Shown one piece after another: positions 15,734 through 34,628 of a stretch of 45,497 nucleotides of DNA. The stretch is taken from assembly GCA_014764025.1 (NCBI GenBank), contig JACXUD010000002.1, positions 1 to 45,497 on the forward strand, written 5' to 3'. Position 1 is the stretch's first letter, and each line of letters opens with the position of its first letter. The stretch is from Campylobacterota bacterium (GTDB lineage Bacteria > Campylobacterota > Campylobacteria > Campylobacterales > Sulfurimonadaceae). The notes under the pieces were generated by a model. The model saw only the letters and a list, made by a program, of their open reading frames with translations. It searched no databases and was not told the origin of the DNA. The position numbers and the translations under genes are program-made.

Positions 15734-15928
15734 ATCACTAATGACATCGAGGAGGTATCCAAAGATTTAGATATCGACAAAATCATCTACAAGGACTCTA
15801 TGGACCTATGGAGCTATTGGAGTAGAGAGACAAGCTATCGCTCACTGGCAAAGAATGGAGAAGAGCCTAAAGAGCTTGAAATAGCCATAGAAGTTGCGAA
15901 AATGCGTTTTTTGCCGCTTAAATTATAA
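15722..15928 (+). CDS. Small protein, 68 aa (or 42 aa from an internal start)
   Basis: The frame reads MRYIITNDIEEVSKDLDIDK from 15722, but that ATG lies within the -10/operator and has no ribosome-binding site. An internal ATG at 15800 (MDLWSYWSRETSYRSLAK) has AAGGA four bases upstream and fits the predicted transcript start, giving 42 aa. Both are listed because the longer frame looks protein-like throughout. Acidic and soluble, family unknown. It precedes the methylase-like gene by 10 bp and is probably co-transcribed with it. Confidence 0.5.
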   Translation: MRYIITNDIEEVSKDLDIDKIIYKDSMDLWSYWSRETSYRSLAKNGEEPKELEIAIEVAKMRFLPLKL

Positions 15929-15938
15929 AAGGAATACT

Positions 15939-16622
15939 ATGAGATACGACGAAGCCAAAAAAGCGTTTATAAAGGATTTAGAGAGTTTTGCATATAAACA
16001 CAGAGGTTATGATGTGTTTGGGGATTTTGTGGAAATGGCTGCGATCAGTCTTTATCAGCCTTTCCGACAAAGCGAGAAGCTAGAGAAGAGGTATCTTGAT
16101 ATAGTTGGAAAATACACCAAAGAAGAGTCTAAGATTTTCGGGAAACTTCTGAGATATGTAGTAGAGGGTTTGACGGACAAATTTGGGGACTTCTTGGGTG
16201 AGTGCTATATGGATAAAGAGTTCGGAAACAAGCATCAAGGGCAATTCTTTACCCCTTATACGATCTCAAAATTCATGGCAGCTCTTTCCGTTGGGAGTAT
16301 TGACACTATGGAAAACAAGAGGATCTCTGAGCCGGCAGCAGGGTCGGGAGGTATGATTATTGCCATAGCCGATCACTTGCAAGAAAATGGGATCAATTAT
16401 CAGAAGATGATGGATGTTCAGGCCATTGACGTAAGCCCTCTCAGTTTTTATATGTGTTATATCCAGTTGAGTTTATTGCATATACCCGCAGAGTGCATTT
16501 GGGGGAACACTTTGAAAATGGATATCTTTGATACTTGGTACACTCCCGCATACCTTCTAAAAAAGTATGACCTTGAAACCCTAAAAACTACAAAGGTGGA
16601 AGAACTGGGAAAAGCCAGTTAA
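15939..16622 (+). CDS. N6-adenine methylase-like protein lacking the NPPY motif
   Basis: 227 aa from the ATG at 15939 (AAAGG ribosome-binding site). Residues 100-114 (QGQFFTPYTISKFMA) and 131-139 (EPAAGSGGM) match the SAM-binding region of type I HsdM / N6 DNA methylases, and QAIDVSPLSFYMC continues that fold. After IWGNTLKMDIFDTWYTPAY (187-205), where NPPY/F would be expected soon after, the protein ends without it. It therefore keeps the cofactor site but lacks the usual catalytic motif IV; short proteins of this style may be a plasmid/phage subfamily. No specificity or restriction subunit is adjacent. Function could be atypical methylation, regulation or degeneration. Confidence 0.75.
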   Translation: MRYDEAKKAFIKDLESFAYKHRGYDVFGDFVEMAAISLYQPFRQSEKLEKRYLDIVGKYTKEESKIFGKLLRYVVEGLTDKFGDFLGECYMDKEFGNKHQGQFFTPYTISKFMAALSVGSIDTMENKRISEPAAGSGGMIIAIADHLQENGINYQKMMDVQAIDVSPLSFYMCYIQLSLLHIPAECIWGNTLKMDIFDTWYTPAYLLKKYDLETLKTTKVEELGKAS

Positions 16623-16666: not shown

Positions 16667-16828
16667 ATGTCCTTCTTTATTCTCTATGAGGGAAAGGTGT
16701 GTACTTTTGGAAGTGCAGGTCAAGATTTTACGCCTGAATGGTTAGAAGAGAATATTTTAATGGATGCAGACGGTATCTTTTGCAAAAAATGTGTCAATGT
16801 TGCACGAAAACTTCTTAATAATTCTTAG
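16667..16828 (+). CDS. Small cysteine-containing protein, 53 aa
   Basis: The sequence starts MSFFILYEGKVCTFGSAGQD and ends with FCKKCVNVARKLLNNS. A C-x2-C pair near the C-terminus and another Cys at residue 12 hint at a small metal-binding or redox protein. No strong ribosome-binding site is visible. It converges on the EAL gene with a 4-bp overlap of stop codons. Family unknown. Confidence 0.5.
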   Translation: MSFFILYEGKVCTFGSAGQDFTPEWLEENILMDADGIFCKKCVNVARKLLNNS

Positions 16829-17613
16829 ATCGCCTGACCTATGGGTGAGAGTGAACGCTCTTCATTCCACAATGCTAAGTCCTTTAGCAAATACCCCTGA
16901 ATAAAATTTATTCCCGCAAAGTTGGCACATTGCTTATGGATCAGCGTCTCTACGCCTTCAAGGATTATCTCCTTGCCGTACCTTTTGCACATTTCCGTAA
17001 ACCCTTTTAGGAATTCAAGCTGCTCATCATCTTCAGATGCCCGGTGCGTCAAGGAGACATCGATCTTGATAATATCCGATCTCATAAAAAGTACCGAAGA
17101 GAACAGAGAGTCGATTGAGAAGATGTCATCCAGTGCGATCCTGAAGCGTCCACTCAGGGAAGGGTTTTCTTTGAGCTTGTCGATAAATACCTTAGACCTT
17201 TCTATTTCCTTATGGGATTTTGACTCTTTGATCTCCAATACGATATTGTCATGCTTTCCTATGAAGCTTTCCCAATGTGCGATATGTTCGTCCTTTGTAA
17301 TGTGGCAAGGGTTGAGGTTTAGGAAAAGAGGCGTGTTGTGAGGACGGTGTTTTACCTGATGCGATTTTGTAAGCATTTCAAGCCGATGGTACTCATCGCT
17401 ATCTTTCTCAAATAACGAGAAAAAGAACTCTGGAGAGAACAGTTTTCCTTCATATTCAAATCTCGCTAGGGCTTCGTTCCCTATAAGAATAGAGGAGCCG
17501 AGATCGACAATAGGCTGATATTCGGTTCGTATAGAAACATTCTTGATCACCTCATCAAGAGGCAGAAGCTCAAGCTTCTTTATGTCCTGGCGTGTTGCTG
17601 TACCTAGCTTCAT
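16825..17613 (-). CDS. EAL-domain cyclic-di-GMP phosphodiesterase
   Basis: 262 aa, start at the ATG at 17613 with AAGGA six bases upstream; a TTG seven codons earlier is not needed. It is a stand-alone EAL domain: EAL at 47-49 (GNEALAR), N99 (FLNLNP), E127 (VLEIKES), D162-D163 (ALDD), K183 (IIKID), E219-E222 (EGVE) and QGYLL at 239-243. All the metal and general-base positions of active EAL enzymes appear kept, though DDFG reads DDIF. It would hydrolyse c-di-GMP to pGpG, favouring the motile state or altering surface and pilus behaviour of the host. No sensor or GGDEF domain is attached. Confidence 0.88.
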   Translation of the reverse strand: MKLGTATRQDIKKLELLPLDEVIKNVSIRTEYQPIVDLGSSILIGNEALARFEYEGKLFSPEFFFSLFEKDSDEYHRLEMLTKSHQVKHRPHNTPLFLNLNPCHITKDEHIAHWESFIGKHDNIVLEIKESKSHKEIERSKVFIDKLKENPSLSGRFRIALDDIFSIDSLFSSVLFMRSDIIKIDVSLTHRASEDDEQLEFLKGFTEMCKRYGKEIILEGVETLIHKQCANFAGINFIQGYLLKDLALWNEERSLSPIGQAI

Positions 17614-17763
17614 TATTTTCCTTGTGTTTCCCAACTAAAACGTCAATTTTATCAAATAAAAAGTTCTCTCAAAAGATTTTCTTAAACTCTTTCGGTTTTT
17701 CCCATTTTTTAGCCTAAATAGTGCAAAATAATTCAAAATAAATTTATCTTTTATATTATTTAT

Positions 17764-17798: not shown

Positions 17799-18107
17799 AT
17801 GGAATTCAAGACACCAAGATATCTAAAAGAGTACGAGTGCGTATGCGGAGAAAAATGGAATGATGTGTGGGATTGTGAATGTAACGATCACTGTCCTGAG
17901 TGCAACAAAGAGATAGAACCTCAAAGTTCTCAAGTGATCTCCGTAATGTATTGTCCTGAGTGTGGAAACCATGATAATGATGGCCACAATAGCGAGCATG
18001 ATCCTTGTGTATGCTGCGGAAGTGAAACAGAATGGAAAATATTTAACGGAAGCCATGAGGCTTATGATCTGTTTGCGGAGAAAAACTTCCCAAAGGATAG
18101 AAAATGA
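17799..18107 (+). CDS. Cysteine-rich zinc-ribbon protein, 102 aa
   Basis: Several Cys pairs are visible: CVCG (14-17), CEC (27-29), CPEC (33-36), CPEC (53-56) and CVCC (71-74). This suggests two or more zinc ribbons. There is no signal peptide. Its stop overlaps the ATG of the nuclease gene (ATGA), so the two are translationally coupled. It could be an inhibitor or helper of the nuclease, or a nucleic-acid-binding regulator; neither is shown. Confidence 0.7.
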   Translation: MEFKTPRYLKEYECVCGEKWNDVWDCECNDHCPECNKEIEPQSSQVISVMYCPECGNHDNDGHNSEHDPCVCCGSETEWKIFNGSHEAYDLFAEKNFPKDRK

Positions 18108-19066
18108 AGAAGATCACGTTAGTTGGAATTATATGTGCGGCGATTTTCTCCAATGGAGCAGAGATTGAATTCAAAGAAAAACTAAAGTCGTTTAAAGAAG
18201 AGTATTCTCATAAGTACCGAGAGTTTGTGACGGAGCTTAAAAGTAACGCCGAAGATATCTCTTCAGAGTATTTTACTAAAGAGGAAACCTCATCAAGCGG
18301 AAGCTCTCCGATAAACCTAAAAAACATCAAGAGAAAAAGCGAAGAGATACTTACCGATATCTCTCATAATTTTATGCCGGAAAAAGAAGAGACTGCCCAA
18401 AGCAGAACGGGTCGTATTTCTGAAAATAAGAGAAGACTACACTTTCCGATTAATGAAAGATTGCTTCTCTCTAAAACGGGATGTAGAAAATATGGTGATC
18501 AGCTTGTGGACAAAAAATACTACAAAGCTTGTTATAACTATGACTACAAGGCTTCGATCTTTGTCGGTTATGAGCTTGACGGTGCATTGGTCAATGAGTT
18601 AAACATAGGAGAAAGACCAAAGTTCTATTCAGAGCCGATGATCCCTCGAAGATATCAGGCAAATTACGGGGACTGGTCAAATACCGGATATGACAGAGGA
18701 CACGCTGCACCCGACGCTTCAATGGACTTTTCCAAAGAAGCACAGAACAGCACCTATTCCCTGGTAAACATTTGGGCTCAAGCGGCGATGGTCAATCGTA
18801 AGACATGGATCAAAGCGGAGAAGTATTCAAGATATGTTGCGGTGAAGCTTGGAAGATTAAAAGTATTGGATATTGCAGTGTTTCCTCAAAAGCCGATCAG
18901 GATAGGAAGAGGCAAGGTAGCAGTGCCATACGCTTTTTATAAAGTGCTTTACAATGATGAGCAGAACTTCAGAAGATGTTTTTATTATGAGAACGATAAG
19001 AACGTCAATGTCTCAGCAGATAAGCTCAAGGGGCATATCATAGAATGTAGCGAGGTGACGTTTTAG
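18104..19066 (+). CDS. Secreted DNA/RNA non-specific endonuclease (DRGH type)
   Basis: 320 aa. A signal peptide covers residues 1-19 (MKKITLVGIICAAIFSNGA). A charged, poorly conserved region to about 105 precedes the nuclease domain. The active-site motif DRGH is at 197-200 (YDRGHAAPDA), followed by the conserved asparagine/glutamine pattern N222, Q226 and N231 (LVNIWAQAAMVNRKTW), as in Serratia-type/NUC1 enzymes. Such enzymes use the His as base and the Asn to hold magnesium. Outside the cytoplasm it could degrade foreign DNA, process DNA at the cell surface or attack competitors. The coupled zinc-ribbon gene precedes it. Confidence 0.87.
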   Translation: MKKITLVGIICAAIFSNGAEIEFKEKLKSFKEEYSHKYREFVTELKSNAEDISSEYFTKEETSSSGSSPINLKNIKRKSEEILTDISHNFMPEKEETAQSRTGRISENKRRLHFPINERLLLSKTGCRKYGDQLVDKKYYKACYNYDYKASIFVGYELDGALVNELNIGERPKFYSEPMIPRRYQANYGDWSNTGYDRGHAAPDASMDFSKEAQNSTYSLVNIWAQAAMVNRKTWIKAEKYSRYVAVKLGRLKVLDIAVFPQKPIRIGRGKVAVPYAFYKVLYNDEQNFRRCFYYENDKNVNVSADKLKGHIIECSEVTF

Positions 19067-19101: not shown

Positions 19102-19324
19102 AATTGCGGAGCGTTTCTGTTTCTCGGAAGATGTAGTGACTCACTATAAAGATATGTGGCCTACCGAGAAATAGAAACCGAAGATGTGCTACGGGGCCTT
19201 CAAGTATCTCGAAAGTATCTCGAAAGTATCAGGCAACCGAATCTACAGATGAGGTTAGCTTATGCTATGGGAATAGATACGCCACCCGAACAAAAATAAA
19301 ATCCTAAACTATTTTGGATTTTTT
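19099..19324 (+). ncRNA. Possible structured RNA with its own promoter and terminator
   Basis: The 325 bp between the nuclease and thyX (19067-19391) hold no clear gene. A TATAAT box (19099-19104) is followed by GTTTC-tg-TTTCTCGG (19112-19126), which pairs with CCGAGAAA-ta-GAAAC (19164-19178). Inside lies TAGTG-act-CACTA. Then come repeats of AAAGTATCTCG (about 19203-19230) and finally a true terminator, AAAATCC-N11-GGATTTT plus T's (19298-19324). That is the outline of a small RNA of about 200 nt. A competing reading is a decayed gene: after a TAA at 19147, one frame stays open to 19299 and reads like protein (EDVLRGLQVSRKYLESIRQP). Confidence 0.4.
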
Positions 19325-19391
19325 AGAAAACTGCACTACCTCACTTTTTGATATCCGCTATCATACTAACAATACACTAAAGGAAAACACG

Positions 19392-20219
19392 ATGCTTTCT
19401 TACAAAAAACCAAAAGTCACCCTACTTCAGGAGTCCGGGTTAGGAGTTGCGGAGATCGCAGCGAGAACTTGCTATGACAGTTTTGAGAATTCAGAGAACG
19501 ACTGTATCAGGAACTATAAAGAGGATTTTGATAGGGATGCGATCAATTCCATCGAGGACTCAGAGCTTCTTGCTAATCTTGCATGGGTACATCATCATCA
19601 TTCTATCTTGGAACACGCAACACTGAGCTTTTTGGTTGAGGGAATAAGCAGGGGAGTGCTTCAGGAACACGCAAGGCATCGCATTCAGGCAATTTCGTGC
19701 CGAAGCACAAGATACACAATGTCATCGGTATTAAATGCTTTTGCGGCCTCTATGAAATGTACCAATGAGTTAGTGTTTTTTATCAATAAGATCATGGAGC
19801 TTGATATGTTTGTCGTTGATGAAGAGGAATATCTCTTTCTTGAGATTGAGTGTCTATTCAATAAGCTCAAGTATCATAGGCACAAGTACGAAGAGGATAG
19901 TGATTTTCTCAAAGAGATCATAGCAGCTTCTTCACTTGGTTATATGGACGAGTTGGGCGATAACCCGGAAGCTCTTTACCAGGCACTACAAAACGGGAAG
20001 AGGAAAAGAAACGTCGGAGACAAATTTAAACATATCGTGACCGATAACTGGAAGGTAGATATGGTGGTCACTTTCAATATCCGAAGTTTAAAAAATTACT
20101 TTGATCTTCGTGATTCAGGAGCAGCATGGTTTCAGATCCAGTGGCTCGCTCAAGCCATAAAAGAAGCAACACCTATGAAGTATCTAAAGCTCATCGATAA
20201 AAAGTACAAGGATATTTAG
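19392..20219 (+). CDS. thyX: Flavin-dependent thymidylate synthase (ThyX)
   Basis: 275 aa from the ATG at 19392, seven bases after AGGA; a longer start lacks a ribosome-binding site. The family signature RHR-x7-S is present at 95-105 and reads on to RY at 107-108 (RHRIQAISCRSTRY). It departs from the usual RHRxxSxNExSxRY in the middle (S, N and E become A, S and C). LEHATLSFLVEGISRGVLQE before it and RSLKNYFDLR near the C-terminus also fit. ThyX makes dTMP from dUMP using FAD, NADPH and methylene-tetrahydrofolate. Carriage on a plasmid may raise thymidylate supply or match a host lacking thyA, as phages often do. A terminator follows. Confidence 0.85.
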   Translation: MLSYKKPKVTLLQESGLGVAEIAARTCYDSFENSENDCIRNYKEDFDRDAINSIEDSELLANLAWVHHHHSILEHATLSFLVEGISRGVLQEHARHRIQAISCRSTRYTMSSVLNAFAASMKCTNELVFFINKIMELDMFVVDEEEYLFLEIECLFNKLKYHRHKYEEDSDFLKEIIAASSLGYMDELGDNPEALYQALQNGKRKRNVGDKFKHIVTDNWKVDMVVTFNIRSLKNYFDLRDSGAAWFQIQWLAQAIKEATPMKYLKLIDKKYKDI

Positions 20220-20277: not shown

Positions 20278-20392
20278 TACGTTAAAATACGTTTAAGTTT
20301 CAACGAGAAATTACCCCATATTACTCTCATTTATCTACATTGTGTTTTATTCATAGGATACTTTCACGTTCATGTCACGTTCATGTCACGTT
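20278..20392 (+). repeat. YACGTT direct repeats upstream of the 20515 gene
   Basis: TACGTT occurs at 20278 and 20288 (10-bp step), and CACGTT at 20365, 20376 and 20387 (11-bp steps, inside a tandem ACGTTCATGTC). The helical phasing suggests binding sites for a regulator of the gene at 20515. A TATAAT-type box follows at 20411-20416. The rest of 20220-20514 holds no convincing gene. Confidence 0.45.
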
Positions 20393-25423: not shown

Positions 25424-25987
25424 TTACTCCCCAACTCTATCTTCTTGCCGACTCTTTTGTAGCTCCATCTTTTTACGGGAACTCTCCTCGGTGGCACTAT
25501 TGACCCTATTCTCCAAATCATTACAGAAATTTGTCATAAGATCAGGGAGTGCAGCCATTTGATATCTGTCAAAAGCTACACCAAACTGTTTTACTGGATC
25601 TCTCATATTAATAAAATAAGTATCTACCCGGATAGGCTTTTTATCATTGTCTTTTCCGTCACGCAATTTATGACCAAGAGTTAAAGCCTTCATAAAGTTA
25701 TTAGATCCGGTAACAAGTCTAAAGTCATTCGCTATTTTATTTTTCTGCAATACCTTGAGTGCAATAATGAGTGATCTAAGTTTCAGGCAATCCAACTGCA
25801 TAGTAACCGTGTTCGCCTCATCCCTTTGGAAGTTATTGAATACTGTGATATGAATATGCTCTTTGATCTGATACTGCTCAATTACAATATGACCCTCAAG
25901 CTGAATATACCCATTGGAAATTCCACGCAAATCTCTTCTTGATACCAGTAGTTTTTCTACGGAACTTTTATCGGTTTGCTGCTGCAT
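25424..25987 (-). CDS. Hypothetical protein, 187 aa
   Basis: A GAGG site precedes the ATG. It begins MQQQTDKSSVEKLLVSRRDL; the middle is alpha/beta (HIVIEQYQIKEHIHITVFNN) and the last 30 residues are a charged helix. No motif recognised. It is divergent from the StbA/TraK-like operon and its promoter must lie close to the 10-bp repeat array, so it may be under the same control. Confidence 0.6.
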   Translation of the reverse strand: MQQQTDKSSVEKLLVSRRDLRGISNGYIQLEGHIVIEQYQIKEHIHITVFNNFQRDEANTVTMQLDCLKLRSLIIALKVLQKNKIANDFRLVTGSNNFMKALTLGHKLRDGKDNDKKPIRVDTYFINMRDPVKQFGVAFDRYQMAALPDLMTNFCNDLENRVNSATEESSRKKMELQKSRQEDRVGE

Positions 25988-26040
25988 TGGTCCTCTTACC
26001 TTTTTTCATAATTATATCACAGTGTCATACGCTAGTGCTA

Positions 26041-26130
26041 AAAAAATGCAAAAGATTGCAATAAATTATAAAAAAATGCAAAGAATTACAAAAGATTGCA
26101 AAGAATTACAAAAGATTGCTAAAGATGTGT
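26041..26130 (+). repeat. Nine phased 10-bp repeats (centromere- or oriT-like binding array)
   Basis: Read in steps of ten from 26041: AAAAAATGCA, AAAGATTGCA, ATAAATTATA, AAAAAATGCA, AAGAATTACA, AAAGATTGCA, AAGAATTACA, AAAGATTGCT, AAAGATGTGT. Consensus AAAGATTGCA, in phase with the helix. The array runs directly into TATAAT (26131-26136), so a protein bound to it would also control the operon. Similar phased short repeats precede partition or transfer-adaptor genes such as the stb operon of R388. Confidence 0.75.
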
Positions 26131-26136
26131 TATAAT
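26131..26136 (+). promoter_or_regulatory. -10 box of the partition/transfer operon
   Basis: TATAAT directly after the 10-bp repeat array; the -35 would lie within the repeats. The leader of about 55 bp ends in AGGGAAATAGGA before the ATG at 26197. Confidence 0.65.
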
Positions 26137-26196
26137 CCACAGAATGACAGACGGGGAACTAATAAGGTTTCACGGAAAGAGAATAGGGAAATAGGA

Positions 26197-26694
26197 ATGG
26201 ATGATAAGTTGATCAACGAAAACCTACTGAAAGAGATCACAAAACCCACCAAATACAAGAAAATAAGCCTCTCTACACGCCAAAAGGCAATTATTTGGGC
26301 ACTAAAGTACGAGTATGATCTCACACTCGAAAATATTGTGCTATATCTTGAGAAGGCAGAGGGTATCGCTACTAATGTTGATAAGGTCTATCGAGTGCTT
26401 AAAAAAATGAGTGAAGAAGTTGAACAAGGTAAAGACGTTATTTTTCCTAAAAAGACTACCAAATCCGACAAAAACGATAAAAAAAAGAAAGAAGAAACAC
26501 CTCAAAAACAAGAAGAAAACACTACTACTGAAAAAGAAGAGGAAAACGAAGGTTGTAACCTTGATTTCGATTTATCCGATAAAGTACAATATGACGAACA
26601 AGGAAATATCACTGATGAATCAATGGCTTTCATTAGAGAAGAATTCAAGAAATTCAAAAATTTCAATAATCAAGAAGAGAGGAAGAAAGAGTGA
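26197..26694 (+). CDS. Putative DNA-binding adaptor of the partition/transfer operon
   Basis: 165 aa from the ATG at 26197 (MDDKLINENLLKEITKPTKY). Residues 28-75 (ISLSTRQKAIIWALKYEYDL, then LYLEKAEGIATNVDKVYRVL) look like a winged or plain helix-turn-helix domain. A long low-complexity linker of Lys, Glu, Thr and Gln follows, then an acidic C-terminus. By position (first gene, repeat array upstream, ParA-like gene next) it should bind the repeats, like StbA of R388 or TraK of RP4. That role is inferred, not seen in a known family match. Its TGA overlaps the GTG of the next gene (GTGA). Confidence 0.55.
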   Translation: MDDKLINENLLKEITKPTKYKKISLSTRQKAIIWALKYEYDLTLENIVLYLEKAEGIATNVDKVYRVLKKMSEEVEQGKDVIFPKKTTKSDKNDKKKKEETPQKQEENTTTEKEEENEGCNLDFDLSDKVQYDEQGNITDESMAFIREEFKKFKNFNNQEERKKE

Positions 26695-27518
26695 GCAACG
26701 GAAAAAAACCCCCAGTCATATTGATATCAATCGGAGTAAAAGGTGGACCAGGTAAGAGTGTCACAGCAATTCATTTCCTAACGGGATATTTGGGCCTTAA
26801 AAAAGAAGATAGAGAGTATATGATCTTAGAATTTGATGCTCACAATAGAACGCTTGATAACTTCAATAGTGAGATCAGTGGAAAAGTAGTAGGGAAAAAT
26901 GATACAGAGATCAGAGACAATCTTTCGGATATCGAGTTTGATGCCGACGAAAAGAACATTATTATTGACGTAGGGGGAAGCGAGAACACGGAGCGTTTCT
27001 TGGAGTATATCAAATCACGCAAAGAGACTTTTAAAAATGCAATATTTATTATCCCTGAACTTAACGAGCCTGATCATAGTGCAGATAAAACCGTAGAACT
27101 CATAAGAGGCGTATTGGATAATCCTAAGATCATTGTAGCACTCAACAAGTATAGGGGAGAAAAGAGCAAAGAGGAAGAGTTTGGTTTTATTTACGGTATG
27201 GAACAGTTCGATATTCCTGCTAAACCTTTTATAAAAGATAAGTGCATAAGCATTGTGACTATTCCTGAGTGTGAGGTTTCACTAGGACTTGCAAAGATCA
27301 AAAAGCAAACACTATACGGACTATCCAATATCGCAAGAATGACAGCCGGATTTACAACAGCACAAAAGAAAGTGCTTTGGAGTGAAGACGGAGAGACTCC
27401 TTGTGATAAAGAAACATATCGTACAGAGAGCAGATCGCTTGATGCCTCCATACAAGCCCTTGAAACCCTCAAAAAAGCAGAAGGGCTATTTAAGGCAATC
27501 GATGGGCTTAGAAAATGA
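26691..27518 (+). CDS. ParA-like ATPase, TraL/StbB type
   Basis: 275 aa, GTG start overlapping the previous stop. A deviant Walker A, KGGPGKS, lies at 17-23 (ISIGVKGGPGKSVTA), with Walker-B-like IIIDVGGSEN at 90-99. FDAHNRTLDNF (49-58) and IIVALNKYRGE fit the TraL/StbB group of ParA-type ATPases, which serve plasmid transfer and stability rather than classical ParABS. The late segment VTIPECEVSLGL also fits. It would use ATP to position the plasmid or transfer intermediate, together with its neighbours. Residue assignments are by eye. Confidence 0.75.
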   Translation: MSNGKKPPVILISIGVKGGPGKSVTAIHFLTGYLGLKKEDREYMILEFDAHNRTLDNFNSEISGKVVGKNDTEIRDNLSDIEFDADEKNIIIDVGGSENTERFLEYIKSRKETFKNAIFIIPELNEPDHSADKTVELIRGVLDNPKIIVALNKYRGEKSKEEEFGFIYGMEQFDIPAKPFIKDKCISIVTIPECEVSLGLAKIKKQTLYGLSNIARMTAGFTTAQKKVLWSEDGETPCDKETYRTESRSLDASIQALETLKKAEGLFKAIDGLRK

Positions 27519-28069
27519 ACGACACAGAAAGAAGAAGGGCAGAGAGTCTATTAGATGTCGTATCCCTACTTGAATTTGTAGCCGACAATCTCAAGGATAT
27601 TTCCAAAGGGCCAGTCAATGCCATGAAAGCAACTGAGCTCACCCTTAAAAACATAGATATCGCTGCCAATGAATTGATCTCTACCCTTAAAGAGAGAGAA
27701 GCTTCTATTCGCAAAAAAGAGAGAAGTATCTTTATTCCTGAAGATGATTTTGAAAATTTGGTATCAAAGCTCAATGAGGTTAGAAATATTCTCGATAAAG
27801 AGAAAGACAACAGTATCCCCCTTTCTATCAAGGAGCTCTCCCAAAAGCAAGCTGAAATGAGCGAGGTCTTTGGAGATTTAAAAAAAACCCTTATTGAAGA
27901 GATAGCAAAGCTGAAAACCCAACAGACAAACTCTTATCAAAAGACTACCAAAAAGAGCATAGAGCCTAAAAAGTACAGCGAAATGGGTATCGTTGGAGGG
28001 TTGTGTTTTGTGGGTGGGATTGCGGTTGGAATCTTGTCTGTTCTTCTTTATATTTCACAGTCTTACTGA
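27515..28069 (+). CDS. Tail-anchored coiled-coil protein, third gene of the ParA-like operon
   Basis: 184 aa, ATG overlapping the stop of the ATPase (ATGA). Residues 1-140 are helical and charged, with long heptad-like stretches (LISTLKEREASIRKKERS, LSQKQAEMSEVFGDLKKTLI). A single hydrophobic helix at 158-180 (MGIVGGLCFVGGIAVGILSV) lies near the C-terminus with only four residues after it. It is therefore probably anchored to the inner membrane by its tail. RP4 TraM occupies the same place after TraK and TraL, so a membrane-docking role for the DNA/ATPase complex is suggested. Confidence 0.6.
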   Translation: MNDTERRRAESLLDVVSLLEFVADNLKDISKGPVNAMKATELTLKNIDIAANELISTLKEREASIRKKERSIFIPEDDFENLVSKLNEVRNILDKEKDNSIPLSIKELSQKQAEMSEVFGDLKKTLIEEIAKLKTQQTNSYQKTTKKSIEPKKYSEMGIVGGLCFVGGIAVGILSVLLYISQSY

Positions 28070-28100
28070 ACTCGTCAGTGCATTGACGAGTTCTTATTTT
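28068..28100. terminator. Bidirectional-type terminator between convergent operons
   Basis: GAACTCGTCA (28068-28077), loop GTGCAT, TGACGAGTTC (28084-28093), then TTATTTT. A perfect 10-bp stem. It overlaps the stop codon of the 28069 gene and ends at the stop of the minus-strand DsbC-like gene. Confidence 0.85.
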
Positions 28101-28951
28101 ATGTCTTTAGTTCTTCCCAAAACACCATTAATAAAAATTTTCGGAGTGCTATTTACAGCAAGAGATAATCCGGCTTCAATCTCTTTGTCGATCTCAGGAA
28201 GGTCTATTTTATAGAGTTCTTCTTTATCGGCTGAATACCCACTTATCTTCTCTATCTCAGAGGCGATGAAATCAACATCGTTAGAAGAGACCAAAGAGGA
28301 CTTTACCTTTAGTACCCCTGCATTGTAGATCGATGAGGTTATATCTATTCCTTTACGATGAGCTTGTGCCATGATCGCTGAAACTGTTTTACTTGAAGGA
28401 AATTTGCCAATAGGAAAATGATAGAGATATACTGCATAGTCCTTTTTTTCTTGAGTTATCTTCTTCTCTATCTCAGCATACGCAGTTCGGCAGTATGGAC
28501 ACCAAGGGTCAGAAAAAATGAGAATTTTATTCTCGCTCTTACCATTTCCTAAAATGAGATTTTTTTCAGTGTAAAAGATCGAGGGATCTATTTTTGGGAT
28601 AGCCATAGAAGTTAAACTGCGTCCATCTAAGGTAAAAAGTCCAGTAGCCACAATACCTTCAGAAGAGAGAAACAGTATATCGCTTCTAGTGGAAACCTTA
28701 ATGATCCCATTTTTATCTTTGTCTTCAGTAGTATATTTAACAACGTATCCGGTAAACCAATCTGCACCTGGTACGGTAGTTGTTCCTGATACTTCAACAC
28801 TCTTGACTTTGAAGTTCTCATTCCTTACTTCAAAGGGATGGAGCATATTTCTAGCAAACTGTTCCACTTTTGCTTCAAGCCCAAAATCATCACCCAGTAA
28901 AAGCGAGGCAAGTACCGCAGTGGAAAGAATGGCATTTTTAACTATTTTCAA
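28094..28951 (-). CDS. Periplasmic DsbC/DsbG-like thiol:disulfide oxidoreductase
   Basis: 285 aa. Start taken at the TTG at 28951 behind AAGGAGATCAC, which places a signal peptide at the N-terminus (KIVKNAILSTAVLASLLLGD); the first ATG, further upstream, would bury it. A dimerisation-like N-terminal part precedes a thioredoxin fold with CPYC in IFSDPWCPYCRTAY and a cis-proline in VNSTPKIFING. It would shuffle or isomerise disulfides of secreted proteins; T4SS and pilus operons often carry such an enzyme for cysteine-containing components. It is the last gene of the leftward transfer-like operon. Confidence 0.8.
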   Translation of the reverse strand: MKIVKNAILSTAVLASLLLGDDFGLEAKVEQFARNMLHPFEVRNENFKVKSVEVSGTTTVPGADWFTGYVVKYTTEDKDKNGIIKVSTRSDILFLSSEGIVATGLFTLDGRSLTSMAIPKIDPSIFYTEKNLILGNGKSENKILIFSDPWCPYCRTAYAEIEKKITQEKKDYAVYLYHFPIGKFPSSKTVSAIMAQAHRKGIDITSSIYNAGVLKVKSSLVSSNDVDFIASEIEKISGYSADKEELYKIDLPEIDKEIEAGLSLAVNSTPKIFINGVLGRTKDIK

Positions 28952-29027
28952 GTGATCTCCTTGTGATGGAAAAGGTTTAAGGATAGTAGATGAGGATTGT
29001 GAAGAGAAAAGCGTGAAGCAATGATCC

Positions 29028-29594
29028 CTAAAGTACCATATCTTCATACCTTACATCTTTGTTGAATATCTTTTCTCCAATATCGACTTTATTCTCAAGA
29101 TCATGTCTTAAAGAGACAAGGTGTTCAAAACAGAGCATGAGTTCTGTTTTGGATTTAGATTGAAAGTCCCCCCATTTGCTAGTAAGGAAGGATTTAACCG
29201 CCTTTTCTTCTTTTTTGTCATTTGGATATTTAAGATTATGTCTCCGTGTTACTTCTCTTGCAAGTGCAGCTTCTCCTATGCACTCCGCAACAAAGAAATA
29301 ATGGGCAATCCAAATATTCTCTTCTTCTTGAGAGATCATAAACATATTTTTAAAATGTTGAAGTCCAGCCTCAGTCCAAAGACCTCTTATTGAGTTATTG
29401 TTTTTTACCGTGTATATATAATGAGAAGAGTCAAAAATGTTGTCTTGTAAGAATTGTTCAGTCAGTTCTATAAAAGCAGTAGTACGAAGCGTTTTTTGCA
29501 TCTGCTTCTTCGTGTATAATTTTTTCTCACTGAAATCGTCCACAAGATACCAGTGATCATTCCTTCTTGACAAAGAACTACATTCAATTTCCAT
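29028..29594 (-). CDS. Hypothetical soluble protein, 188 aa
   Basis: GGGAGGA precedes the ATG at about 10 bases. It starts MEIECSSLSRRNDHWYLVDD; residues 20-90 (KKQMQKTLRTTAFIELTEQF, GLWTEAGLQHFKNMF) look like a regulator or antirepressor-type alpha/beta domain, without certainty. Mostly helical afterwards. No family recognised. It precedes the DsbC-like gene in the same direction. Confidence 0.6.
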   Translation of the reverse strand: MEIECSSLSRRNDHWYLVDDFSEKKLYTKKQMQKTLRTTAFIELTEQFLQDNIFDSSHYIYTVKNNNSIRGLWTEAGLQHFKNMFMISQEEENIWIAHYFFVAECIGEAALAREVTRRHNLKYPNDKKEEKAVKSFLTSKWGDFQSKSKTELMLCFEHLVSLRHDLENKVDIGEKIFNKDVRYEDMVL

Positions 29595-31958: not shown

Positions 31959-34628
31959 TTACCCCACTGGGTTAATTACCTTACCTCCAACACTCTGTTT
32001 CATTTCTTGGCTTGACTCTTTTAGGGACTCAAGACCTCCATCTACACCAACCAATTTCAAAAACCAACTCTTGTAATTGTAGATCAAAATTAGAGAAATA
32101 ATTAGAGTTGCAAACAATGAAAATATCATCGTCATTCCATTTATACCACTAATCATGACAGCACTTTGAATACTGTTCCCTGCTTGGGTCAATAGACCCG
32201 CATCGCTATTATTCGCTTCTGTTAGTACGCCAGTCATTGACTCCGACGCATTATCGATCACCGTTACGATAAGGCTCATTAGTAACCCAAATAGTCCCTT
32301 GAATGTCATGGCAACCGGAATTAAGAGTGAGGCGGTGATAACCATAAGCACCGGAGAGAATGAAATAGCAAAGAGGGAAGTAAGGAAGTGCCCTAAATGA
32401 TTTTTTGTCCCGCCTTTAGCCATGAACGCATAATATATCCCTATGACCATACTTGAGAAAAAGAAGAATATGGTCTCCACAAAGAGCATAATGATCTGAA
32501 GTACCAAAAATGCCGAAATTGTCATCATCGTTACGGCTGAAACCATGAATGTCGCTACTATAACAGAAAGGTATAGTGCTGCAATGCCCACAAGATAAGA
32601 ACTGCCAGCAGCGATTAGACTCATAGTTCCTGAGATCATTTTCCCAACTGGGCCAAAATAAGAAAGTCCTGAAGAGAGCTTGGAAGTTATAAAAGAAACA
32701 AGTCTTTTCATCCAACTTTTTCCCTCTTCCGTATCTCCTTTGGCCTTTTCGGGGTCCGTAATGAAGATATCGCTCATTATCCCCTTTACCATTTTATAGA
32801 GTTCCGAGAAACCAGGAACTAAAAACCAATAACTGTTCGTAACCAGTCCTGAGTTTAGAGCACCCTCTAAAGCTTCGTCCATTACAGTTTCCACAAACCC
32901 ATCCGCTTCACTTCCTAGTTTGTCTTTGTTTTCTTGTTGTGCATTCTCAAGCCCTTTGGCGTAAGACCCGCTATTGTCTTTTGTGACCTCATCATAAAGA
33001 AATATCTCAGCATTATCCAAAAAGAAATAACTTACTGGGATAGCAGAAATGAATCCCCAACCAACATGATTTTGACCAAATTGCAAAAGAGCAAGGAAGT
33101 CCATGAGGGAATTTGCGGAGTTTCCGCTAGTATTCATAAGATCTCTGTATCTTTCAAGTTCATCCTTGAGTGTTACATAGCTAATGAGTGTTTCTTGAAG
33201 ATCAGAAGAGATATCCCCTTCAAGCTTTGAGCAAGCTCCAACAAGTAATCTGTCTGTTTCGATCTGTACGTTTTCCTGCTTGAGAATATTTTCATTTACG
33301 CCGTAGTTGTTTTGGTTTATCTGAGCACTTTTCTCTTTAGGGAACAACTGAGTATCCGTATAGTTAAAATAAGGACGGCAAATATCCTCATAGAATGCAA
33401 CCTCCCTGATTAGCTTCACCTTCTTAACCTCATAAGAAGAGAGTTTTTCTCCAATAGTGATGTAACGCTGCTCATCTATATCAATAAACCCACTTTTTTT
33501 TGCAAGTAAAGAAAAGTAGATCGCCATTACATAGTCAGAGGACCTATTTGCCAAATAAGTACCAGTCTGTACACCGATGCGGATGGTTTTTTGAGCGATA
33601 GAGCTCCAATTCTCTATTTTTTGTGTCTCTGCGGAACTGACGTTTATGTTGGTCGAAAAACCACTATCTTTAATATCTCCATCATTGAATACCGGGGCTG
33701 AAAAGAATAGAATGGCGATCATTGCGGTAGAGAAGAAGGAGAGGGCATTTGTTTGGAAAGGCTCAGTTCCATACTTTTCAAACATTTTTCTAAAGAGATA
33801 ATATCCCGAAGAATAGAGCATACCTAAAGCAAACATCGTCATAACGATATCACTAAATATTTTCTTTAATGCCTCTATGGTGAGTATGTAGTATCCTAAA
33901 ACTTGACGATCCGCAAAGTCTAAAGGGCTAATATACTCTATCGTTGCCTTGTCTGAAGACTCTTCTCCGGTAAAGAAGCTAACAACATCGCTCCAAAAAC
34001 CTGAGTCCGAGATTTCACTTCTAAGGATATTAAACTCTTTTTTAATTACTGCCTCTCCCGCATCGTTGATGTATCCTTCTTCAAAGAAATCCGGGTCAAG
34101 TGTAAAAGTTCCCATAAGGACAGAAGAAAGAGTTTTGGTGTATTCAGTATGGGAGTCGATAGGGTGTGTTTTTACAAAATCATTATATTTGGCTTCCCAA
34201 GCTTTTTTTGCTTCAGCATTTTTAGACATTACATTCGAGATAAGCTTGTCGAGTTCTGCTTTACTTAGTGTTGCAAGATAGGTGGGATCAAATTCTACCT
34301 TACGACCTTTAATTTGGCCAATATAGGCTTCAAGCTTACTTTGGTTTTCTGCCAGGATCGCATCACCTCTATTATCTGCTGCATCTTTTTCATATTCTTT
34401 ATTACAGTCTGTAGTAACCGTAATGTCCTCGGACTTGCTACTGGTCGCAGAGTAGGTGCAGAGAGCTTTACCATTTTTAATATCTAGCTCACTTAGATAG
34501 CCATATTGCTGATCATTATTTGGATGTGAAGGACACGAATAGGCTTTCCAGTTATCGGAGCCGCACCCTTTAGCGTGAAGAAGCACCTGAGAGTAGGCAA
34601 GCAGTAAAAAAACAAAAAACCTTTTCAT
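31959..34628 (-). CDS. Large polytopic membrane protein, DotA/TraY- or TraG-like T4SS component
   Basis: 889 aa with a signal peptide (MKRFFVFLLLAYSQVLLHAK), then a large hydrophilic periplasmic part (about 20-245) with several cysteines (GCGSDN, YSCPSH). At least seven further hydrophobic segments follow: near 250-275 and 295-312, then a cluster around 635-750 (GIAALYLSVIVATFMVSAVT, VETIFFFFSSMVIGIYYAFM) and more near 765-860. This plan of exported N-terminus, long loops and clustered C-terminal helices is that of DotA/TraY (IncI type IVB systems) or TraG of F. Such proteins form or stabilise the inner-membrane channel. The placement beside lipoprotein and VirB9/VirB10-like genes supports a T4SS role; exact family is uncertain. 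Confidence 0.6.
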   Translation of the reverse strand: MKRFFVFLLLAYSQVLLHAKGCGSDNWKAYSCPSHPNNDQQYGYLSELDIKNGKALCTYSATSSKSEDITVTTDCNKEYEKDAADNRGDAILAENQSKLEAYIGQIKGRKVEFDPTYLATLSKAELDKLISNVMSKNAEAKKAWEAKYNDFVKTHPIDSHTEYTKTLSSVLMGTFTLDPDFFEEGYINDAGEAVIKKEFNILRSEISDSGFWSDVVSFFTGEESSDKATIEYISPLDFADRQVLGYYILTIEALKKIFSDIVMTMFALGMLYSSGYYLFRKMFEKYGTEPFQTNALSFFSTAMIAILFFSAPVFNDGDIKDSGFSTNINVSSAETQKIENWSSIAQKTIRIGVQTGTYLANRSSDYVMAIYFSLLAKKSGFIDIDEQRYITIGEKLSSYEVKKVKLIREVAFYEDICRPYFNYTDTQLFPKEKSAQINQNNYGVNENILKQENVQIETDRLLVGACSKLEGDISSDLQETLISYVTLKDELERYRDLMNTSGNSANSLMDFLALLQFGQNHVGWGFISAIPVSYFFLDNAEIFLYDEVTKDNSGSYAKGLENAQQENKDKLGSEADGFVETVMDEALEGALNSGLVTNSYWFLVPGFSELYKMVKGIMSDIFITDPEKAKGDTEEGKSWMKRLVSFITSKLSSGLSYFGPVGKMISGTMSLIAAGSSYLVGIAALYLSVIVATFMVSAVTMMTISAFLVLQIIMLFVETIFFFFSSMVIGIYYAFMAKGGTKNHLGHFLTSLFAISFSPVLMVITASLLIPVAMTFKGLFGLLMSLIVTVIDNASESMTGVLTEANNSDAGLLTQAGNSIQSAVMISGINGMTMIFSLFATLIISLILIYNYKSWFLKLVGVDGGLESLKESSQEMKQSVGGKVINPVG

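Follow-up and report, generated by a model that had tools for sequence, protein, structure and literature searches.

What does a ParA-type ATPase do when its gene lies between those of a predicted DNA-binding protein and a membrane-anchored protein, behind an array of phased repeats? This question is raised by a locus of a Campylobacterota bacterium (GCA_014764025.1), within the stretch of 45,497 nucleotides (contig JACXUD010000002.1, positions 1-45,497) that we call the window. We consider it fairly probable that this locus belongs to a conjugative-type Campylobacterota plasmid and represents a divergent module of the Stb type (StbABC/TraKLM-like), and we infer its mechanism from the features described below.

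The operon and its three proteins

The three genes, here called A, B, and C, lie on the forward strand in that order and overlap by 4 bases at each junction, which bears out the three-gene, overlap-coupled operon proposed in an earlier note on this DNA. Gene A (26197-26694, +) starts with ATG and encodes 165 residues with a predicted HTH core, a charged linker, and a C-terminal helix, in the position of StbA/TraK. Gene B (26691-27518, +) starts with GTG and encodes a 275-residue ATPase of the ParA/MinD superfamily, of the StbB/TraL kind, and gene C (27515-28069, +) encodes 184 residues in the StbC/TraM position, with a long charged region that looks helical and a single membrane segment at the C-terminus. 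A stem-loop with a T-rich tail (28068-28093, +) resembles an intrinsic terminator; because 2 such structures were found in the region against 1.5 expected, the stem is weak when taken alone, and it is its place at the end of the operon that supports it. A DsbG/thioredoxin-like protein is encoded at 28094-29047. On the other side of the operon, a divergent orphan gene of 187 aa (25424-25987, -), which matches none outside the window's own genome, occupies the position that is held by a MobC/TrwA/TraJ-type relaxosome gene in pHCD, R388, R751, and others.

The earlier reading of B as a TraL/StbB-like ParA ATPase is supported by the alignment of whole families. When a profile of eleven Campylobacterota B proteins was compared with a profile of eight StbB/TraL proteins, hhalign gave a probability of 99.4 and an E of 7.6e-22 (for one comparison) over 229 columns, end to end. 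By itself, B has weak Pfam matches to the ParA superfamily and matches NCBIfam StbB at E 3.4e-5 with 23.4 bits, below the cut-off of 200. Its deviant Walker A motif is KGGPGKS, with the signature lysine, and the eleven B proteins have in common the motifs KGGxGK, E-x-D-x-x-N, and D-x-GG, with K17, G18, G19, K22, E47, D49, N52, D93, G95, and G96 invariant. Solved proteins related to B by sequence are MipZ and Soj, while by fold the B model, whose P-loop is of low confidence, is nearest in VIA-align to ParF (Z 11.3, 191 residues) and also to FleN, FlhG, and MinD. A Foldseek list headed by triosephosphate isomerases was set aside for its poor rmsd; VIA-align puts ParA-type folds first.

For A and C, the note had seen no recognisable match, and Pfam, NCBIfam, and PHROGs indeed return weak, unrelated-looking matches only. 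Window A is an orphan: tblastn in plasmids gave no match, and a search of 397 Campylobacterota genomes with A alone gave nothing convincing, the best non-self E being 0.003 in a 434-residue frame. The AlphaFold2 model of A (overall pLDDT 55.8) has helices at residues 27-39, 44-53, and 61-76 (pLDDT about 77-83) and a C-terminal helix at 140-164. The predicted HTH core (residues 25-78) aligns best in VIA-align with a small-terminase DNA-binding domain (Z 9.2, rmsd 1.3, 53 residues), and the rows after the small-terminase chains are mostly other DNA-binding HTH domains; StbA is absent among the VIA-align rows, and Foldseek gave no E below 0.86.

The link between A and StbA/TraK is provided by relatives. 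A profile of 14 relatives' A proteins aligned with a profile of seven StbA/TraK proteins with a probability of 96.1 and a score of 56.8, while the reversed profile reached 10.3 (probability 0.10) and 40 column shuffles at most 12.2 (probability at most 0.23). Left out of the A profile were the near-copies L011, L012, L015, L017, and L065, as well as upstream frames (63-68 aa) in L010 and L020 that are apparently of another HTH kind. Window A itself matches the A-family profile at the HTH (residues 38-68) with a score of 22.7, which none of 100 column shuffles reached (maximum 13.1), at a probability of only 9.4. Pfam DUF5338 matches A of L022 (4.8e-4), L014 (5.6e-4), and L016 (0.02), all below cut-off. 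A match of 7pc1, the solved domain of StbA, at 5.5e-18 was rejected as circular, given that the profile contains R388 StbA, and against a profile of the A relatives alone plain HMMER gave E 0.57; the assignment of A thus rests on the profile-profile result with its controls. Judging from the model, window A is a probable, unproven DNA-binding HTH protein: the predicted core, with pLDDT about 80, speaks for the DNA-binding role proposed earlier, although A is without a detectable close homologue.

The membrane tail that had been predicted for C corresponds to one strong hydrophobic segment at residues 159-177 of 184 (27989-28045, +; 19 residues with a mean Kyte-Doolittle of 2.42), after which only 7 residues remain. 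A C-terminal membrane segment is present in 15 of the 15 Campylobacterota C proteins examined, window included (hydropathy 1.48 to 2.74 in the other 14), and in eight of eight proteobacterial StbC/TraM-position proteins (1.67 to 2.66); because some have tens of residues after the segment, the term tail-anchored is exact for only part of the C proteins. Sequence homology between C and the other Campylobacterota C proteins was not found (2.35, reversed control 0.99), and the likeness of C to StbC/TraM is architectural.

These proteins also allow for a simpler reading, namely plain plasmid partition, in which a type Ib-like ParA and its adaptor would act on a phased-repeat centromere, without a mating role and with C as an accessory. 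ParF/ParG of TP228 (type Ib) is like the window in joining a ParA-type ATPase to a small protein that binds a site made of repeats. B is without an N-terminal HTH, as in type Ib partition, and has ParF and other ParA-type ATPases as its nearest solved folds; furthermore, the window has a single strong array of its kind, which is centromere-like, and no other ParA or ParB among the scanned proteins. We nevertheless find this reading unlikely, since B groups with StbB/TraL by profile and its relatives adjoin MOB genes. Type Ib adaptors are ribbon-helix-helix proteins, whereas A is, with moderate confidence, predicted to have three helices in an HTH arrangement instead, and we know of no type Ib system with a membrane-anchored partner comparable to C.

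The repeat array and its promoters

The array lies between two divergent promoters and consists of nine degenerate 10-bp direct repeats (26040-26129, no strand assigned; consensus AAAARATTRC), as described earlier apart from a start one base further to the left. The ninth unit, TAAAGATGTG, is weak, and TRF reports a period of 10 and 8.4 copies. The stretch 25988-26196 has a phased-repeat score of 36.6, a value reached by none of 500 dinucleotide shuffles (mean 7.0, sd 1.3, maximum 13.2); the z of the array is 21.7. By TRF rows and the shuffle test, the array is among the strongest of the window, where no other phased copies of its units exceed random-sequence maxima. It does run into the TATAAT of the operon, as had been claimed: the operon promoter has the extended -10 box TGTGTTATAAT at 26126-26136 (+), and the divergent gene has its own extended -10 box, TGTGATATAAT, at 26011-26021 (-). 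Both boxes fit TGxTATAAT and together constitute the inverted pair I7; a generic -35/-10 scan does not include TGTGTTATAAT in its list.

We regard the array as a putative binding site of protein A. Another possibility, which we think improbable, is that it represents the usual Campylobacterota promoter signature or a bent A-tract rather than a protein-specific site. According to the available text of PMC3656092, C. jejuni sigma-70 promoters combine TGxTATAAT with a periodic A/T-rich pattern and have no clear -35 box, and the window has two such boxes as well as A-runs that recur every 10 bases. However, the array is 90 bp long and is conserved beyond its A-tracts, with T at unit position 8 in eight of nine units and C at position 10 in seven of nine. 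Moreover, most of 96 control intergenic regions score far below it, with a median z of 0.95; two of them reach a z of at least 15 and 12 a z of at least 5. Among these 12 are the stb regions of R388 and Caminibacter as well as two regions upstream of replication genes.

Other repeats were observed in the window. A 21-bp array of 3.7 copies (1934-2012) just upstream of a Rep3-type initiator gene (726-1877, -) probably corresponds to the plasmid's iterons, and perfect 11-bp tandem repeats of 2.6 copies each, AAGTATCTCGA (19202-19230) and TCACGTTCATG (20364-20392), surround a ThyX-like gene (19314-20219). In addition, the window encodes proteins with an N6 methylase domain (15894-16622) and an EAL domain (16825-17634) and a DNA/RNA non-specific endonuclease (18104-19066).

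The note had tied its proposal to the conservation of the repeats in relatives with the same operon, and this was seen only in part. Phased repeats at a z of at least 3 precede the operon in six of seven proteobacterial regions (R388, pXap41, IncN, IncI2, pNY9, and pS121; not R751) but in only four of 16 Campylobacterota relatives (L007, L013, L016, and L022), none of which is close (B at most 28% identical). The tested stretches were 350 bp upstream, which may include coding sequence (e.g., L007), or hand-set intergenic regions; the proteobacterial set comprised seven plasmids from 1,929 records and R388 itself, plus R751, with pPP1-1 lacking a StbA row. From these counts, phased repeats often, but not always, accompany the operon, and they are also seen elsewhere, e.g., as likely iterons. 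Very strong arrays were observed near other B operons: the 10-bp AAGTAGAAAA is repeated 13.9 times at L113:17512-17651, and a 22-bp unit 3.9 times, in perfect copies, at L114:6468-6552.

Relatives, mobility genes, and the chromosomal pair

B is found at E of 0.001 or lower in 67 of the 397 Campylobacterota genomes, and a pattern scan of species genomes yielded 205 candidate stretches, of which 60 were confirmed. In a 43-row tree, the B proteins of Campylobacterota split from the proteobacterial ones with support of 90/80, and window B sits on a long branch inside a group of 12 rows that is of the non-chromosomal type (99/98), with a best identity of 28% in the tree set. Viral contigs yielded no member of the B family, and a phage origin was therefore dropped. 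Sequence comparison points to the Campylobacterota StbB as a separate clade with rearranged partners, which offers a new angle on these systems.

The rearrangement of partners can be seen in the 92 B loci that we classed: 57 are B-C pairs with a C of 82-89 aa, 14 have the order A-B-C, 8 have B with a NikA/MobC-like gene, 4 have the order C-B-A, 1 is B-C without a called A, and 8 are of other kinds. This classification was made by script and includes duplicates (e.g., L003/L012, L022/L065, L008/L040, and L029/L049) and the window as L001, and nine distinct A-B-C loci besides the window are left after the removal of copies and the doubtful L010 and L020. For one of the eight loci with a NikA/MobC-like gene, Pfam identifies the product as NikA-like (PF21983, 3.3e-20).

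Mobility genes accompany several of these relatives. On pHCD, the trio has mobC/relaxase genes on one side and a replication gene on the other; NikA-like genes are found near B in G074, G319, G370, G187, and G256, followed by a relaxase in G319, and G250 has a relaxase and a NikA-like gene on the same contig as B, about 30 kb away. A search of 17 genomes gave a relaxase (PF03432) in 7 of them and a NikA-like match in 7. A Caminibacter pacificus plasmid that carries a B gene matches the window proteins at 31959, 34642, 36167, and 42533 as well as SSB; its sister genome has a 95-aa protein after B with a weak NikA-like match (0.02), and an array of 21-bp period upstream of B has a z of 16.4 in the sister genome (350 bp) and of 6.1 in the plasmid (781 bp). 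In the window itself, no relaxase or MobC/NikA-type gene was found among 46 proteins scanned with Pfam, and the contig has no terminal overlap, so its completeness is open to doubt. A PF03432 relaxase and a NikA-like gene do occur in the window's own genome, on contig C146 (L108) of 3,283 bp. By eye, this relaxase looks to be part of a ColE1-type mobilisation set, and it was rejected as the partner of the window; C146 is probably a small mobilisable plasmid of its own that shares the cell or bin with the window.

The B-C pairs lead to a different kind of genome. In the Arcobacteraceae-type family, 95 of 104 genomes have a chromosomal B relative at E of 1e-10 or lower; the chromosomes encode the StbB-like ATPase and a protein of 82-89 aa whose membrane segment is C-terminal, without A. 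Examples are L040:6016-6801 and, similarly, L008, L025, L032, and most of L042-L092; the pair is preceded by an endonuclease III-like or YmdB-like gene (named by eye). The chromosomal ATPase clade (99/100) joins B of pHCD (94/95). The retention of B and C without A suggests that the pair can work without a DNA adaptor, and this, together with the genes in common with the Caminibacter plasmid that flank the operon, would fit a regulatory or membrane-positioning module of a neighbouring transfer machine in which DNA binding serves autoregulation only, a reading that we find quite improbable given that, outside those chromosomes, B is mostly beside a small DNA-binding-type partner, either HTH or NikA-like.

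Tentatively, we also entertain a broader possibility, namely that the ancestral working unit is the StbB-like ATPase together with the protein anchored by its C-terminus. This pair would be a ParA-type switch tethered to the membrane, to which plasmids couple one or another DNA adaptor (an HTH protein encoded before or after, or a NikA-like one) along with a matching array, and a pHCD-like pair would have been domesticated on Arcobacteraceae chromosomes. If this were true, all systems of the Stb/TraKLM class would have their membrane anchor in the StbC/TraM protein, for which R388 showed no phenotype, and the window would present the plasmid form, with an exceptionally clean array.

A model of function and its known counterparts

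In the Stb-type reading that we favour, several copies of A would sit side by side on the array, on the same helix face, where they would mark the plasmid and repress both promoters (autorepression). B, with C as its membrane tether, would act ATP-dependently on the A-bound DNA, moving the A-array complex to the membrane or releasing it, and could in this manner switch the plasmid between two places, one that ensures stable inheritance and one at the membrane, close to the mating machine. Stb is one of the few systems where a single operon governs both inheritance position and mating. The recurrent membrane-anchored third protein gives StbC a testable role, the Campylobacterota branch adds swapped adaptors and permuted gene order, and the chromosomal relatives provide bacteria where B can be studied without a plasmid.

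A literature search of limited coverage, consisting of titles and abstract openings, revealed no Campylobacterota StbA/StbB/StbC system. Within the phylum, the plasmid pHCD of Helicobacter cetorum has the same A-B-C order, with its trio beside mobC and relaxase genes; in contrast to the window, phased repeats were not found there by the shuffle test (z -0.8), and its B is 28% identical. The traKLM genes of IncP (R751/RP4) have the same order and kind of proteins. TraL_RP4 carries the KGG signature, according to the available text of PMC3098194, and the TraM-position protein of R751 ends, like window C, in a membrane segment (1.99). R751 differs from the window in that the shuffle test found no phased repeats (z -0.7) and in that TraJ and TraI adjoin.

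R388 has a comparable plan: its stbABC is also a three-gene operon with a 4-base A-B overlap and encodes an HTH protein, an StbB ATPase, and, in third place, a protein whose C-terminal part contains a membrane segment (mean hydropathy 2.08), with phased direct repeats ahead of the operon. The available text of PMC3098194 describes these repeats, the stbDRs, as bound by StbA, and they are at the same place as the window array. It also reports that StbA is needed for stability and acts against transfer, that transfer depends on StbB only when StbA is present, and that StbC is an orphan whose deletion is without effect; the words "transmembrane" and "coiled" are absent from its main text. By analogy, these genetics may serve as a model for the operon's function in the window plasmid. 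A TTGCA core common to the window, R388, and pNY9 units was given no weight, as it is short, may be due to chance, and is on the other strand in R388. Several differences stand beside these likenesses: the R388 repeats have an 11-bp spacing and the unit TTGCATCAT, whereas the units in the window span 10 bp and are rich in A; the signature of B is the classical KGGxGKS, that of R388 SGxxGK; no sequence match is detectable for A or C; and on the other side R388 has TrwA-type and MOB genes in place of the orphan gene of the window. Thus, of the parallel with stb and traKLM drawn in the earlier note, the part concerning B and the overall plan is well supported, that concerning A is weaker, and that concerning C is one of architecture.
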